Positions 27,638-35,577 of a stretch of 64,000 nt of DNA are shown here, in pieces (the first letter of the stretch is position 1; the number at the start of each line of letters is the position of its first letter). This DNA comes from Brugia malayi. Its lineage: Eukaryota; Nematoda; Chromadorea; Rhabditida; Onchocercidae. Below the pieces are notes generated by a model, which was given only the letters and a program-made list of their open reading frames with translations, did no database searches and was not told where the DNA came from. The DNA lies in contig NW_025062479.1 in the NCBI RefSeq assembly GCF_000002995.4, forward strand, positions 9,353,721 through 9,417,720, given 5' to 3'. Position numbers and translations under genes: made by a program.

Positions 27638-27642
27638 AATAG
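27638..27642. repeat. Target-site duplication, left
   Basis: AATAG directly before the left LTR, identical to the 5 bases directly after the right LTR. Five bp is usual for BEL/Pao elements. Confidence 0.95.
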
Positions 27643-27973
27643 TGTCGCGAATTATAATTTCGCGAAAAACTTCTAACTGTCGTGAAAGATGAAATATTTA
27701 AATTATTATATCCAAAACTGTTTAGGGAAATCATTACATTGTTAACAATCTTGTTTTTTCATCCATAGAAATTCTTCCATCTAATTTCCATTCATTAAAT
27801 CAGTCTTATATATAAACCAACCAATCCTTCTATAACCATCATTTGCTTTATGTTTTGAGTGGTATTAGGATGCGTCTAATACTTTATAATTTCGTATTAT
27901 TTCACCATTTTTATATTATTGCATTTTATATAGTTTACGTGTTTGTTAATCGGTGTAGCATCCGTACGATATG

Positions 27974-27979
27974 TATAAA
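27974..27979 (+). promoter_or_regulatory. TATA box of the LTR
   Basis: TATAAA within the LTR, its first base 35 nt before the first G of the embedded SL1 sequence. This is the spacing expected between a TATA box and a start site. The right LTR has the same signal at 35450-35455. Confidence 0.6.
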
Positions 27980-28002
27980 GCGCTATTATTTGCCTCATGT
28001 TA

Positions 28003-28008
28003 AATAAA
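28003..28008 (+). terminator. LTR polyadenylation signal
   Basis: AATAAA directly abutting the SL1 sequence. In the right LTR the equivalent signal (35479-35484) would place cleavage roughly 10-30 nt later, inside or just after SL1. Confidence 0.55.
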
Positions 28009-28030
28009 GGTTTAATTACCCAAGTTTGAG
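28009..28030 (+). other. Exact SL1 spliced-leader sequence inside the left LTR
   Basis: All 22 bases equal the conserved nematode SL1 exon, from GGTTTAATT to CCAAGTTTGAG. It is followed by GTTTAT, so the base after the leader begins a GT as in a true SL RNA gene. It is not followed by an SL-RNA-like body or Sm site that I can recognise. Its position relative to TATAAA and AATAAA marks the likely start of the R region. Confidence 0.95.
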
Positions 28031-28107
28031 GTTTATTAATCTTCCTACTGTATTGCAACAATTCGAATATCCACCAACAGACAACCTTTCACGACAAAAA
28101 TAATTTT

Positions 28108-28127
28108 TGGTGCCACGAGCCGGGAAC
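28108..28127 (+). other. Putative primer-binding site
   Basis: Starts TGGTGCCACGAG, with the TGG expected as the complement of a tRNA CCA end, 11 nt after the LTR. Which tRNA would prime is not clear to me; the complement ends TCGTGGCACCA. The gap to the LTR is longer than usual, so this is tentative. Confidence 0.45.
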
Positions 28128-29204
28128 ATGTCAAGCCACATTATCGCGAGCTTTCAACCGGCAAAGGAAAGGTTAGTCAGTCTTCTTAAAGAAGTAAATC
28201 AACTGGAGATCAAATTTCCAGATCCAAATATGACAATAGAAGAAAAAGAAGATTTTTATGTGATAAGAAAAAGAGTGTTAGAAGATAAACTTCGAAGAAT
28301 CCAATTATGCGTGACTACGCTTGAATCTATCAACGATAAATGGTTCACATATACTCAACAAATCGTCACGATGAAAAGAAGAGAAGAAGAGGAAGAAAAA
28401 TACAAAACAGTAACAGAAGGTGACCAAGGAATATTTCAATTATTACACGAAGGAAAGGAAGCGATAATAACACTGACAATGCACATGGATGAAGTCGACC
28501 AAAACTTAAAACAACTCTCAAAGGAGTTGACGAACAAACAAACAAAAGAAGAAGCAAAATTTACTCCTTCTTCAAATATTAATGTAAATCTTCCTCATTT
28601 ATCGCTCCCTACTTTCGATGGAGACCCAAGACAATGGCGACAATTTTGGAGCAGTTTTAACGCAGCAGTCCACACACAAGCGATTCCAGAAATACAAAAA
28701 TTGAATTACTTGTACTCATGTCTTAAAGGAAAGGCTCTACAAGCAATATCTGGATATGATATAGCTCCAGAGAATTATGAAGTCATCAGAAAACTGCTCA
28801 ATGAAAAATATGGCGACCACTCAATAGTAACAACATTACTATACAACGAACTCCAATCAATTAAACGAAATGAAAGAGAATGGATTGGAACAATTGAAAA
28901 TATAGAACGAGTACTGCGCCAGTTAGAAGCTCTAGGAGAAAGCCTTGAGCATTCAAATATTGAAATCATGATCGAGAGCAAGTTGCCATTATGGATATTA
29001 AATAAAGTATATAAACATAAGAAGAAGGACATGCCTTGGTCAATTCTCAAACTAAGAAACTTTTTAACAAGTTTAGTTAATGTGAATGAACAGATTAGAA
29101 ACTGTCAACATTCACTCACTCAGCTCAATATTAAATCTACAACTACCAAACAGGAACAAAAACAACGATACAATCCCGGAGAACTTCAGCACTGTCGACA
29201 ATAA
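28128..29204 (+). CDS. BEL/Pao gag
   Basis: An open frame of about 358 codons from the ATG at 28128 (MSSHIIASFQ). The first part is rich in charged coiled-coil sequence. It is followed by the gag-like DUF1759 pattern: LPHLSLPTFDGDPRQWRQFW and the KLNYLYSCLKGKALQAISGY stretch. In the family this part forms the particle and binds RNA. The frame ends at a TAA at 29202 where a shift is needed to reach the zinc knuckles. Confidence 0.9.
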   Translation: MSSHIIASFQPAKERLVSLLKEVNQLEIKFPDPNMTIEEKEDFYVIRKRVLEDKLRRIQLCVTTLESINDKWFTYTQQIVTMKRREEEEEKYKTVTEGDQGIFQLLHEGKEAIITLTMHMDEVDQNLKQLSKELTNKQTKEEAKFTPSSNINVNLPHLSLPTFDGDPRQWRQFWSSFNAAVHTQAIPEIQKLNYLYSCLKGKALQAISGYDIAPENYEVIRKLLNEKYGDHSIVTTLLYNELQSIKRNEREWIGTIENIERVLRQLEALGESLEHSNIEIMIESKLPLWILNKVYKHKKKDMPWSILKLRNFLTSLVNVNEQIRNCQHSLTQLNIKSTTTKQEQKQRYNPGELQHCRQ

Positions 29205-29710
29205 AGGATAATCAAAATACTTCAAAAACTACAACAACGAAAAGACGACCATGTGTATTCTGCAATCAAGATCATTGGGACAGCGATTGCGTGAACTACA
29301 CGACTCTCAATGCTCGACTTAGTCGTCTCAAAGTATTGAAGAAATGTACTATTTGTCTTAGAGACAGTCACAAAGGACAGAATTGTAATGTCAAAAAACA
29401 ATGTTTTTATTGCAAAAGCTTACATAATAGTGCTTTATGTAATAAAAGGAATTCACTTTCTTTAAACAATACAATGTCTCAAAGAAATGAAGAGCAAGAA
29501 AGAATTGAACCTTCGAAACGAAAGGATTGTTCAACTTCCCTCTACAACTCGACATTAACAACTCGATCCAAACAGACAAAGGAAACTTTACTTTTATGTA
29601 AGGAGATAAAGGTTTTTAATCCATCACAACCTCAACTACAACAAAATGCCCTTGCATTATTTGATATTGGATCGCAACTCTCCTTCATCTCTAAAAAATT
29701 ATTACGTTAA
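29205..29710 (+). pseudogene. gag zinc knuckles and start of protease, shifted frame
   Basis: In another frame than gag. Cysteine-rich knuckles follow each other (CVFCNQDHWDSDC, CTICLRDSHKGQNC, CFYCKSLHNSALC). The aspartic protease site then reads LALFDIGSQLSF; the usual Asp-Thr/Ser-Gly is Asp-Ile-Gly here. A TAA at 29708 interrupts the same frame before pol continues. Confidence 0.85.
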
Positions 29711-31159
29711 TTAAAGTTAACCGAAACAGAAACTCAAATTATGAGAATAACTCCATTTGGTATGAAAGAACCGAAATCATGTCCCACTGCTCGCATACAA
29801 CTAAATGTGCTAACTACAGGAAGCGAAATCATACCATTACAAGCAAATATAATTGATTATTTAACGAACGAACTGCAGGTAGTGGAGACATCAAATGTAC
29901 TTCAAATTCAAAATTTAACAAATTATTGGAAAAAACCTGACGTATTGATTGGAGCTGACTATTTTTTCAAATTTATTAGTCTACGAGAAATCAAAGAATT
30001 AAAATCAGGGCATATGTTGGTTCAATCAAAAGTTGGTCCTATGATTGCTGGAAGTGGAGATATTGAGAAACTTTGTAAGAACGAATTATATCCTAAAGAA
30101 GTAGTATATTCTACAAATGCCAATATTAACTCGGAGCTAGAAAAATTTTGGAAATTAGAAACGATTGGTATTCAAAAATCACCTCAAGATGATGATGAAG
30201 CTTTAAAGCATTTCAAACGGACCATCATCAAACAGGGTAAAAGATATCAGGTTTGTTGGCCATGGAAGGACTCCAAACAAAAATTAAGCAATAATTATGG
30301 ATTATGCCTGGGACGATTGAAGAATTTGATCAACCGTCTACAACATAATTCAAATCTCCATTCATATCATCAAATACTTATGGATCAACTACATTCAGGT
30401 ATAATTGAAGAAGTACCTCCAAAGGATGAGGTAGGCGTTATTCATTACTTACCACATCATGAAGTATTAACTCCTAGTAAATCAACAACTAAATTAAGAA
30501 TAGTATATGATGCCTCAGCACATCACAAAGGTTTTAAAAGCTTAAATGAAGTACTATATCGAGGTCCAGTAATGTTACCGGATTTAGTTGGAGTAATATT
30601 ACGTTTTCAGATGATGAAAATAGTAATAACCGCTGATATCGAAAAGGCATTTTTACAACTAGAACTACAAAATGAGGAAAGAAATTGTACACGTTTTCTT
30701 TGGTTGGATGATATTGATAAAGAACTAACCAATGAAAATATAAAACGTTACCGATTTAAGAGAGTTCCTTTTGGAATAATATCCTCACCCTTCTTATTAG
30801 CAGCAACATTAAATTACCACCTAGAAAATCATGGTAGTGAATTGGCATGGGAGATAAGAAAGAACTTATACGTAGACAACGTTATTATATCAGCTAATGG
30901 AACAGAAGAGGCCTTATATAAATATGAAAGAACGGAAGAAATTTTTGGTGAAGCATCAATGAACATAAGAGAATTTCTTTCAAATGACGAAAAATTTAAT
31001 GAAAGAATACCTGAATGCGACCTAAGCCAAACAAACCAGGAAATTTTTCTTGGTCTTAAATGGAACCATGAACGAGATATTATCCGTGTGGCACTGAAAC
31101 TATGGATAGGGAAAAGTTTAACAAAGAGGACTATCCTACAATTCATAGCTTCTCAATAA
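29711..31159 (+). pseudogene. pol: protease remainder and reverse transcriptase
   Basis: Same frame as the preceding segment. The first 110 codons hold the rest of the DUF1758-type protease (LIGADYFFKF). Reverse transcriptase follows: KLRIVYDASAHHKG, ITADIEKAFLQLEL, RFKRVPFGIISSPF and the polymerase box YVDN at about 30869. The second catalytic Asp of the usual YVDD is Asn, which should impair polymerisation. The segment ends at a TAA at 31157, just before DPLGLLVP, where the family normally reads straight through. Confidence 0.9.
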
Positions 31160-31963
31160 GATCCATTGGGTCTTCTCGTTCCCATAATGATCAAACTTAA
31201 ATTATTCATACAACACTTATGGAAAGAAAATATTCCATGGGATCAATCTTTAAACAAACAAGACGAACAACAGTGGATAAATCTCATCAAAGAATGGCCA
31301 ACAAATATAATAGAGCTGCCAAGATTTGTAATGGAAACTTCACAATTAACAGAATTCCATATATTTACTGACGCTTCGAAAGTTGCCTATTCTGCAGCTA
31401 TTTATATTCTCAATCATGGATATCAAAACACATATTCGAATTCATTTTTGATTTATGCTAAATCTCGAATTGCTCCAATTAAAGGTATGTCAATTCCTAG
31501 ACTTGAATTATTATCTGTACTAATTGGAGTAAGAGCAACTCAGTTCGTATTGAAACAATTAAATCTTGAAAATAATCAAGTTACTTTGTGGATGGATTCA
31601 AAATGTGTTCTTTACTGGATCCAGAACTATACAAAGCTGCTTCCCAGATTTGTACAAAATCGCATCGAAGAAATACGGAAATCTAACTTCGAATTAAAAT
31701 ACATACCAAGTGATCAAAATCCAGCAGATATAGCCACCAAAGGAGTATCACCACTTAAACTCCAAAATTGTAAACAATGGTGGAAAGGACCTCGATGGCT
31801 GGAACTCAAGAAATCTGAATGGCCAAAGTGCAAACTTCGCTATTCAGGAAACGATGAATTTGCAGAAGCAATTGCTTTGAATTTAACAAAGATGACTCAA
31901 ACTTTTAAAAGGATACAATTGAATTTATTGACGAATGTCGCTTCAGCAGTTGGACAAAACTAA
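31160..31963 (+). pseudogene. pol: Pao-type RNase H
   Basis: Continues in the RT frame after the stop. Family landmarks: DPLGLLVPIMI, IFTDASKVAYSAAIY, SRIAPIKGMSIPRLELL, TLWMDSKCVLYWIQN and SDQNPADIATKG. The frame is lost near 31.91 kb, and the sequence continues in another frame towards the integrase. Confidence 0.9.
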
Positions 31964-33084
31964 TTCGAGTAACTGTTTGGACTTTTAGATTTATTAAACA
32001 AACCTGCAAAAAGAAATTAGTGTGGCTAGAACCATTATCCGTAAAAAAGAAATATATGACTAAAGTTGATTACGATATAGCAGAGACCATGCTGATCAAA
32101 CAGGCCCAATCACAGATGCTAACGGAGGACGAAAAGGAAAAATGGAATCTATACCTAGATGAAAGTGATAATTTATGGAAATTAATGGACCGACTGGAAA
32201 ATTCAGAATTAACGGACGAAAGCAAATATCTCATATATTTACCAAACCATAATTATATTACTGATCTTATTATTTTACACAAGCATAATGAATTATATCA
32301 CGCAGGTATTGCACATACGTTATCTGAATTAAGACGAAAATATTGGATACCGAAAGGAAGAGCTGCTGTAAAACGAATCATAAACCTATGCTGTTATTGC
32401 ATTCGCTGGAAAGCTAAACCGTTTAAACTGCCAGCGATGCCAAGTTTACCAGAAACACGAGTAAAACGATCCAGGACCTTCGAACAAGTCGGCCTTGATT
32501 ATATGGGTCCTCTTTCAGTCAAATCTAATACTGGTCTAGTCAAAAGATGGATAGCACTTTTTACGTGCTTCACTATCAGAGCGGTGCATCTTGAAATGGC
32601 GGAGAATTTATCTGCCGAGAATTTTTCACATGTTTTAAGAAGATTTATCGCTCGACGTGGATATCCAAAATTAATATTAAGCGATAATGCAAGCCAATTT
32701 CAACTGGTATTCAAAATCATTATGGAAGAAAACGCTAACTTTTTGGCTACAAAGGGTATGATATGGAAAAATACTACACCAAGAGCACCATGGGGGGGTG
32801 GTGTATATGAAAGACTTATAGGACTCACAAAAAGGGCATTAAGAAGAGCAATAGGAAGAAAACTTCTAAAGGAAGGAGAATTAATAACATTAATAGTTGA
32901 AATAGAAGGAATCCTTAATACCCGTCCATTAACTTATGTAGGGTTTGACGACTACAGAATCATTCGTCCAATTGATTTTATATCACCTATGGCTTCATTA
33001 GATCTACCAATAAATTATGATAGTGACCAAGATGAATATACCCCTTATACAATAAAGACTAAAGATAAATTAGTCAAGTATTAG
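31930..33084 (+). pseudogene. pol: integrase
   Basis: Begins with FIDECRFSSW in the shifted frame, then the HHCC zinc domain (HKHNELYHAG and CCYCIRW). The catalytic core carries Asp in GLDYMGP (32497), Asp in LSDNAS (32683) and Glu in VYERLIG (32809), so the D,D-E triad is retained. A TAG at 33082 replaces a codon inside the frame, which reads on into the DUF5641 part. Confidence 0.9.
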
Positions 33085-33309
33085 ACTACCACTCTTAACA
33101 CATTAGATGTCTTTTGGAAGTTGTGGAAAGAAGAATATCTTACAAGTCTTAGAGAACGCACACAGAGAGAATTAAAATCACCTAGAATAGTAGAAAAAAG
33201 AGTACCACATGAAAATGAGATAGTATTACTAAATGAACCAGAAATACCTCGTGGTGTATGGAAATTGGCAAGGATAATAAAAATAATCGAGGATGGGATG
33301 GAAAAATAA
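33085..33309 (+). pseudogene. pol C-terminal DUF5641-like segment
   Basis: Continues the integrase frame after the TAG with [16 protein letters not shown] and [15 protein letters not shown], then ends. The rest of the domain ([14 protein letters not shown]) is in the next frame. A one- or two-base change near 33.29 kb is implied. Confidence 0.8.
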
Positions 33310-35093
33310 GGAGTGCAACAATACAATTACCGAATGGAAAACAAATCGATCGATCAATAAATATGCTTTATCCTATGGAAATAGATGCTACTGAAGATAA
33401 AGAAGAAAAAGTGGAAGATGAACCAAAAGAACCCATTGCTCGACGAACCAGAAGTGCTAAAAAATCACAAACTACAATCTATGCAAAGGACAAGTCTAAT
33501 CTTTTGATAAAAACTTTATCATTAATAACGATGATGTCATTAATACCAAGACAGGTATTAGCCAACAATAGCTGTAATTGGATTACTGGAGTACCCTTTA
33601 ATACTCCTGAAAAATGGAATTGTGAAGAAATTATTCACAAAAATGCTACATATCACAAAGTGGATGTGTACACACGCACCCATGCAAGAATACCAGCTAT
33701 AAAATGTAGTAACATTACACGGACTGTATGCACGAAAGCTTTTCTCAGAATATCGCTATCGGTAGTATCAGACCATACGTCTACTACCGCAACTTCCTCA
33801 CAATTCTGCAGATATTTAAATGTTCGAAAACAAATGAACGGAATTGGACTAATTCAATCTTCTCCTAATCAATGGATAACGAATAAGGAAATACAATACT
33901 CCTATGGATGGTTAGGAGTTAACTGTCAATCAACGTCAAACTTCATATTAACTCAAGGAGAAATTCTTTTCTATGATGGAAGAGGGTTAGTCTCTAACCT
34001 TGAAGATATAAAAGACTGTTCGACACAAAAGGGTCAATGCATAACGAATACTAGCATTATCATATGGAATAGCAATGATACGACCAATCATTGTTTATAT
34101 CGAAAGATCGGAAGATTCAAGGCTACAAAGTATAACAACCACTTCATCATCGATGAGATACAAGCATCGCTTATAATTGATAAAAACCCCCCTGTATTAA
34201 ACACCAAAATTTGTAGATTCACCTCTCCAATTTTAATGCAGGGCGATATAGTTATTGAACTAGACGTTGAAGATGACTCGAACTCTACTACAAAATTCAA
34301 ACGAAGAATAACAAATAAACTATTAATGATGGAAAAGACTCCGGATAGAAAGTACGATCCTGAAAATGTAAAACTTCAATACCTTTCTGATTCACTAAGA
34401 CAAGAATTCCTTCAACAACTCAAAGAAACACAGCAGAGAAGTTGCCAAAATAGAAATAACCTATTACTTTTGATCAAATGGCTATCAATCAGCAATCCTA
34501 CCCTTGCCACGAAACTAATACTTCAAAGAAACGATGTGATAGCTAAAAGAATTAACGGAAATTTGATGGTGGCTCCTTGCAAATCAGAACAATCAACAAT
34601 TGAAAATATCGAATTCAAAGGAGATTTAATAAGTAAGTTTGAAATTGAAAGAATTAATGCAGAATTGGAAATCCTAACTCAAACCCAAAAAACAATTAAT
34701 TCAATACCACATCAAATGAAGGATGAACTCTTTTGGCAAGAAATCTCTGAAGAAGGAGAAGAAATTATCAAACAAATGGAAAGGGAATTCGATGAAATTG
34801 TTCTACCGATAGAAGAAGAATTTGAAAACTTGATAACAAACTGGAAATTGATTTTTATCTGTATAATAATCGTGACATTATTAACTATTTTAATTATTAT
34901 TAAGTGGAAATTTAAATTAGTTCAATCTCTCCTTTGTAATACTTCAAAACGAAATTCAAATCAAAGTACCATCATTACTCTCCCTATAGAAGCACAACAC
35001 ACTCAATTTCTAACTAAAGAAGAAATCCCACCTATTAAACTTCATACATTTAACTATATACCTCAAAATCACTCTCTCAAAATTACTTCTTAA
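33310..35093 (+). CDS. Envelope-like membrane glycoprotein of the element
   Basis: One open frame covers the DUF5641 end, a basic linker (ARRTRSAKK) and an envelope-like protein, without any stop for about 590 codons. It has a hydrophobic signal-like stretch (LLIKTLSLITMMSLIPRQVL, about 33.50-33.56 kb), a long Cys- and Asn-rich ectodomain and an acidic coiled-coil-like region. One strong membrane helix lies near the C-terminus (LIFICIIIVTLLTILIIIKW, about 34.85-34.91 kb), followed by a short basic tail. This is the layout of a class I-type or similar retroelement envelope. Nematode BEL elements are known to have captured envelope genes more than once. I cannot place this one in a viral family by eye. 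Confidence 0.75.
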
Positions 35094-35118
35094 AACAATT
35101 TCTCTCCCCCTTTGGGAG

Positions 35119-35572
35119 TGTCGCGAATTATAATTTCGCGAAAAACTTCTAACTGTCGTGAAAGACGAAATATTTAAATTATTATATCCAAAACTGTTTA
35201 GGGAAATCATTACATTGTTAACAATCTTGTTTTTTCATCCATAGAAATTCTTCCATCTAATTTCCATTCATTAAATCAGTCTTATATATAAACCAACCAA
35301 TCCTTCTATAACCATCATTTGCTTTATGTTTTGGGTGGTATTAGGATGCGTCTAATACTTTATAATTTCGTATTATTTCACCATTTTTATATTATTGCAT
35401 TTTATATAGCTTACGTGTTTGTTAATCGGTGTAGCATCCGTACGATATGTATAAAGCGCTATTATTTGCCTCATGTTAAATAAAGGTTTAATTACCCAAG
35501 TTTGAGGTTTATTAATCTTCCTACTGTATTGCAACAATTCGAATATCCACCAACAGACAACCTTTCACGACA
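35119..35572 (+). repeat. Right LTR of the BEL/Pao element
   Basis: 454 bp, 451 identical to the left copy, same TGTCGCG start and CACGACA end. The three differences include T/C changes and one A/G change. No convincing polypurine tract precedes it; the last bases before it are CCCCCTTTGGGAG. Confidence 0.97.
35485..35506 (+). other. Exact SL1 spliced-leader sequence inside the right LTR
   Basis: Same 22 bases and same surroundings as at 28009-28030 (TATAAA 35 nt before, AATAAA abutting). Both copies are unmutated although the LTRs have diverged at three other sites. Confidence 0.95.
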
Positions 35573-35577
35573 AATAG
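35573..35577. repeat. Target-site duplication, right
   Basis: AATAG directly after the right LTR, equal to 27638-27642. Confidence 0.95.

Follow-up and report, generated by a model that had tools for sequence, protein, structure and literature searches.

The window, the 64,000-nucleotide stretch of Brugia malayi DNA analysed here, lies on contig C139 (24.9 Mb). At 27643-35572 it holds a decayed BEL/Pao LTR retrotransposon. Its domains (Peptidase_A17, reverse transcriptase, integrase) identify it as such, as do its paired LTRs and the short duplication of the target site. The reading frames of the coding part are interrupted, leaving several open pieces. In addition to the four domains listed below, DUF1758 scored above the cut-off, and the integrase core (PF00665) fell below it (24.9 bits, cut-off 32.6). 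The element is organised as follows:

27638..27642, no strand: target-site duplication AATAG, 5' side (by eye)
27643..28096, + strand: 5' LTR, 454 nt, TGTCG...CGACA (ends by eye; LTR comparison)
27643..27677, + strand: LTR head, common to an LTR without SL1 from a sister element, L152 (91% over 35 nt)
27678..28008, + strand: U3 of family I type, from its first base TGTCGTGAAAG (LTR comparison)
27974-27979, + strand: TATAAA in U3
28003-28008, + strand: AATAAA in U3
28009..28030, + strand: exact SL1 (exact search), proposed start of R
28031..28096, + strand: remainder of R plus U5, as in the SL1-less sister family (match from 28029, 89% over 70 nt)
28108..28125, + strand: putative primer binding site TGGTGCCACGAGCCGGGA, beginning with TGG (by eye)
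28128..28130, + strand: first ATG 3' of SL1, 119 nt from SL1 base 1
28614..29024, + strand: DUF1759 domain (PF03564), above cut-off
30608..30967, + strand: reverse transcriptase domain (PF00078), partial match, above cut-off
31121..31600, + strand: Pao Peptidase_A17 domain (PF05380) with one internal stop codon, above cut-off
32269..32415, + strand: integrase zinc-binding domain (PF17921, Integrase_H2C2), above cut-off
35119..35572, + strand: 3' LTR, 454 nt (LTR comparison)
35485..35506, + strand: exact SL1 in the 3' LTR (exact search)
35573..35577, no strand: target-site duplication AATAG, 3' side (by eye)

SL1 is a short leader that is spliced onto many worm mRNAs. A sequence-only reading of the window had reported it complete, in sense orientation and without mismatch in both LTRs, and this was confirmed: GGTTTAATTACCCAAGTTTGAG was found with 22 of 22 bases at 28009-28030 and 35485-35506 on the + strand, and at no third place in the window at up to three mismatches. 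The two LTRs differ at three positions, none of them inside SL1. That reading also considered chance very unlikely, with which our counts agree. SL1 was absent from all 100 shuffled versions of the window, and about 2e-5 exact copies would be expected in the 86.8 Mb genome (139 contigs) at an assumed GC content of 30%. The genome contained 303 exact copies, compared with none for the reversed-pattern control. Chance was rejected on the basis of the shuffles, the genome search and its control.

A stray SL RNA gene was also rejected, as the array genes read SL1/GTAATTGAATGT and the window LTR reads SL1/GTTTATTAATC (slashes mark junctions throughout). No Rfam family reached its gathering score in the window. 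Not every exact SL1 in the genome belongs to an LTR: tandem arrays on C18 and C65 hold most of the approximately 100 exact places listed. In the C18 array (L013-L030), 77 canonical SL1/GTAATTG windows were counted versus 6 of GGTTTAATTATCCAAGTTTGAG/ATAATTG, overlapping loci included; the latter is a variant form of the SL RNA gene, altered at the donor. Exact SL1 was absent from our virus and prokaryote contig collections, which by their composition say nothing about other worms.

The 22-mer recurs in further copies of the family and in other LTR families, as the sequence-only reading required. A similarity search with the window LTR gave at least 79 matched pieces at no fewer than 40 LTR places, a lower bound with 40 of 172 candidates scored. 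SL1 was exact in 38 of these 40 places. The other two were C7:46384, with one mismatch, and C1:79620, which is rearranged and whose flank recurs at C71 with an exact SL1. Most of the 40 places belong to family I, defined here as LTRs ending in SL1 plus the 11 bases GTTTCACGACA. This combination was found at 71 places with up to three mismatches, 62 of them exact (reversed control 0). An SL1-less family I LTR, in which GTTAAATAAAG would be joined to GTTTCACGACA, was found at no place at up to three mismatches, and the capture step of family I is therefore not seen.

We compared 70 distinct LTR ends of family I type, 63 of type A and 7 of type B. The U3 abuts SL1 base 1 with ...GTTAAATAAA in type A and with ...TATAATATTGATTTGTC in type B; the two types have much of the remaining U3 in common (by eye). 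Small deviations occurred: an extra T (GGTTTT) in three family I LTRs (L077-L079), and one A more or less before SL1 in L040, one L043 LTR and L098. At several places, type B LTRs (L003, L011, L073-L076, L079) were without the TATAAAG- and AATAAA-bearing stretch that precedes SL1 in type A. Pairwise differences in type A amounted to 186/42966 in SL1 versus 1464/76378 in the 40 nt upstream, and in type B SL1 varied as much as U3 (11/462 versus about 2%); since some rows had been found through SL1 and the rows are related, these counts weigh little. Six SL1-bearing family I LTR ends at C136:10316015-10326202 (L086, L087, L113) show an even spacing of 2,031 bases and form a tandem array of a partial element.

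SL1 was also present in two other LTR contexts. Family II is a repeat of ~470 nt (TGTCACC...TTTTACA; L061 from position 242 on), with at least 43 matched pieces when 40 of 74 candidates were scored. We call it an LTR because of its ends and because CCAGT borders one copy (L148) at either end (by eye). Its U3 abuts SL1 base 1 with ...GTTAATCTAA or ...GTTAATCTGT. In L112, which resembles family I LTRs in short stretches only, the U3 ends in ...GTTAATTTT, again directly before base 1. Thus, the U3s of type A, type B, family II and L112 differ and yet all end directly at SL1 base 1. Another Pao family, with frames of 1,835 aa, had no SL1 at up to four mismatches in the LTRs read, those of one copy (L071, L072).

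Some SL1s stand in other surroundings. Three SL1 or SL1-like sequences (L066, L069, L070), preceded by CAGAAA or AGAATAAA and followed by ATAC or ATTA, are not LTRs of the types described; L066 lies near a tRNA-like stretch (by eye). In fourteen exact copies the next two bases are not GT but GC (13) or GG (1); one of these copies belongs to family II and another is L112. Nine others have no G directly after SL1, some of them in arrays. C137:5742861 and C139:199848 are among these places.

The position of AATAAA differed between the groups: directly 5' of SL1 in family I, ~8 nt 3' of it in family II and ~3 nt 3' in L112. From these positions, poly(A) sites at the usual distance would be expected within or after SL1. 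Taken with the U3 ends, the placement of AATAAA agrees with SL1 as the beginning of R, the segment that both ends of the genomic RNA have in common.

If R began with SL1, the element might simply encode its own leader: transcription would start at SL1 base 1 without any splicing, and selection on translation would keep the sequence exact. The exactness of SL1 in most copies speaks for this, and so does the arrangement of ATGs. The first ATG follows SL1 base 1 by 62-68 nt in 10 family I 5' LTRs, from a set of 11 that also included L101, and in these 10 and the window element no other ATG intervenes. ATGs at -12 and about -38, by contrast, would give longer RNAs short uORFs. This layout favours RNAs that begin at SL1, whether through a start site or through splicing. 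TATA-like motifs are less accommodating. Their distance to SL1 base 1 is 33-37 nt in type A, where one LTR has no such motif in the 60 nt upstream, and 16-18 nt in all seven type B LTRs; given this unequal spacing, the start would not be put at base 1 in every type. We regard a self-encoded leader as possible, though rather unlikely.

Alternatively, SL1 may have been captured once and carried along since, being neither R nor functional. The decay of family II points in this direction. SL1 differed at 39/760 sites in 36 rows, similar to 86/1170 upstream and 70/1553 downstream. L148, L150 and L151 had been dropped from these rows as repeats of the L117, L131 and L132 places, and L149 was omitted because it overlaps L125. 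Family I copies, for their part, are young and much alike near SL1. Decay at the rate of the flanks is, however, also what dead copies would show if SL1 was exact in their sources. A few family II copies (L125, L131, L132) are missing part of SL1. The window LTR and L061 match over only 37 nt including SL1, yet SL1 is exact in both, and a passive remnant would not explain why several U3 ends meet at SL1 base 1. We consider such a remnant improbable.

The history of the window element itself was revealed by its sisters. Its A17 domain is 96-97% identical to five copies (L154-L157, L171), 58-60% to eight family I copies (L158-L161, L167-L170) and 55-61% to the remaining five A17 copies read. Family I LTRs flank or adjoin L158, L160 and other copies of the eight-copy branch. 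The stop codon in the window A17 (31121-31600) recurs at the same position (ASQ*DPLG) in L157 (C138:2687827-2688306), which fits the spread of a defective copy or one common source.

L152, the 5' LTR upstream of L154 and the only sister LTR read, is without SL1. It reads TTCGGAAAATAAAG/GTTTATTAATCTTCCTACTG, that is AATAAAG/GTTTATTAATC, and the window reads TTAAATAAA-SL1-GTTTATTAATCTTCCTACTG. The 269 nt after L152 are 96% identical to the body of the window element. The window LTR is a hybrid, consisting in order of the 35-nt sister head (91%), a family I U3 from its first base, SL1 and the sister U5. Genome-wide, the SL1-less junction was found at 38 places exactly and at 83 with up to three mismatches (reversed control 5); SL1 joined to the sister U5 was found at 7 places. 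The hybrid LTRs L033, L034 and L002 lie inside their own 5-bp duplications (ATATA, GATGA and CTAAG, by eye), so the hybrid LTR has moved since its formation. In L002 and L004 (C3), hybrid LTRs of the window subfamily, ~80 nt of U3 are missing, the TATAAAG stretch included.

The sequence-only reading had suggested that the leader was captured when a trans-spliced RNA of the element was reverse-transcribed. That SL1 came from trans-spliced RNA is plausible, and PMC7181701 has already proposed it. Capture by the window element itself is not supported, in view of one pol-sister LTR without SL1, the common SL1-less junction and the foreign U3 plus SL1. The element probably received its SL1 by LTR exchange from another family.

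Two routes can lead to the hybrid. In the first, a sister RNA would have been spliced at AATAAAG/GTTTATT and so have gained SL1 at its 5' end. The first cDNA of this RNA could then anneal over 22 bases to a read-through RNA whose 3' end carries a family I R with SL1, giving the observed LTR. If the sister RNA had no SL1, the longest match in the junction region would be AAATAAAGGTTTA (by eye), and a transfer there would lose SL1. In the second route, which can also produce the hybrid and involves no trans-splicing, a family I LTR would have been nested in the sister U3, followed by a deletion between two AGGTTT stretches. The proposed sister acceptor AATAAAG/GTTT has no pyrimidine tract, which counts against the first route. 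In its favour, an R needs no particular sequence and yet this one equals the host leader exactly. The sequence fits either route.

The same point leads to a more far-reaching idea. The host SL1 RNA might supply the 5' R by trans-splicing in every cycle, making the host leader a part of element replication, with the SL1 of the 3' LTR as the landing site of the first strand transfer. Re-splicing would leave no trace, because the LTR's own TTTGAG/G would serve as the acceptor. An R free to have any sequence is here SL1, exact in 38 of 40 places and with its bases the commonest ones in all SL1 columns of family II, and in the window the SL1-U5 join follows what is an AG in the SL1-less sister. A further sign comes from L005 and one family II insertion, where SL1 is followed by an additional TTTGAG, as splicing at an internal CCCAAG/TTTGAG would leave. 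It occurred at three places. Two of them, C136:784851 and C136:1012233 (family II), have the same SL1 mutation and 3' LTR flank and thus look like one duplicated insertion, which leaves two independent cases. L006, the probable partner of L005 (same GCACC flank, 96% identical), is without the extra TTTGAG. TTTGAG stretches also rearrange in other ways (C1:79620), and slippage is possible; the extra copy is at most a hint of a splicing scar. Recurring SL1 variants among family II copies fit inheritance, or possibly locus duplication. Overall, a leader supplied anew by the host in each cycle seems unlikely to us, and we put the dual role of the LTR copy, as strand-transfer receiver and traceless acceptor, equally low.

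The explanation we prefer combines ancient capture with later exchange. In an ancestor, an SL1-trans-spliced element RNA would have been reverse-transcribed, and the leader captured at the start of R. From then on, SL1 would have been passed on with the LTR at each copying and kept exact by active lineages. Traces around SL1 are common to family I, family II and L112, so one capture accounts for them as well as several. Later, a family I LTR would have been joined into an SL1-less Pao LTR, giving [35-nt sister head][family I U3][SL1][sister U5]; the resulting LTR would later have transposed to further places. We give this account an even chance, because the RNA ends, on which it turns, are deduced from the DNA.

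The sequence-only reading had allowed for an earlier report, and for B. malayi Pao elements there is one. Foster et al. (2020, PMC7181701) described 316 SL1 signatures in this genome, 196 of them close to SL1 RNA genes. Of the 120 elsewhere, 60 lay within 1 kb of Pao elements, and SL1 pairs flanked Pao elements on one strand. The authors' conclusion was that expressed Pao RNAs had received leaders and had carried them along on integration. Both the SL1s beside B. malayi Pao elements and the idea of capture are thus already published, which lowers the surprise of the present finding. The window element shows the same pattern, a Pao-type LTR element with SL1 within 1 kb of both ends on one strand, and the published SL1-Pao elements are very probably the same as those described here. 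In the accessible part of that paper, SL1 is near or flanking the elements, with no placement in the LTR at the U3/R boundary and no mention of SL1-less sisters or hybrid LTRs. Our search for an earlier account of an SL1 at the U3/R boundary or of the hybrid LTR found none; most subscription journals and the Ascaris Tas work were outside it. Added here are the proposed position at the start of R, the exactness in 38 of 40 places, the second-hand SL1 of the hybrid LTR and the junction counts.

Two other systems are related in part. Cer1 of Caenorhabditis elegans is likewise an LTR retrotransposon of a nematode, and one of its mRNAs receives SL1 by trans-splicing: its 2.4-kb mRNA occurs with and without SL1, and its 8-kb RNA was not trans-spliced at that site (PMC3315495). 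Unlike the window element, it is of the Gypsy/Ty3 type, and SL1 is added to its RNA by splicing. Dinoflagellate retrogenes carry DNA-encoded splice-leader remnants, likewise a leader that reached genomic DNA by reverse transcription. These are described as retroposed cellular genes, unlike the LTR element here, whose two repeats each contain the leader (PMC12014239).

If the preferred account is true, a splicing system that tags mRNAs feeds back into DNA and shapes the LTR of a transposon. Pao families with near-identical U5, with and without SL1, would offer a natural comparison for the effects of the leader on capping, translation and strand transfer. Trans-splicing would allow LTR exchange between unrelated Pao RNAs, provided that SL1 is R. 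Should the host supply R in each cycle, any trans-spliced Pao RNA could swap LTRs with an SL1-bearing one, and the window hybrid may show such a case.
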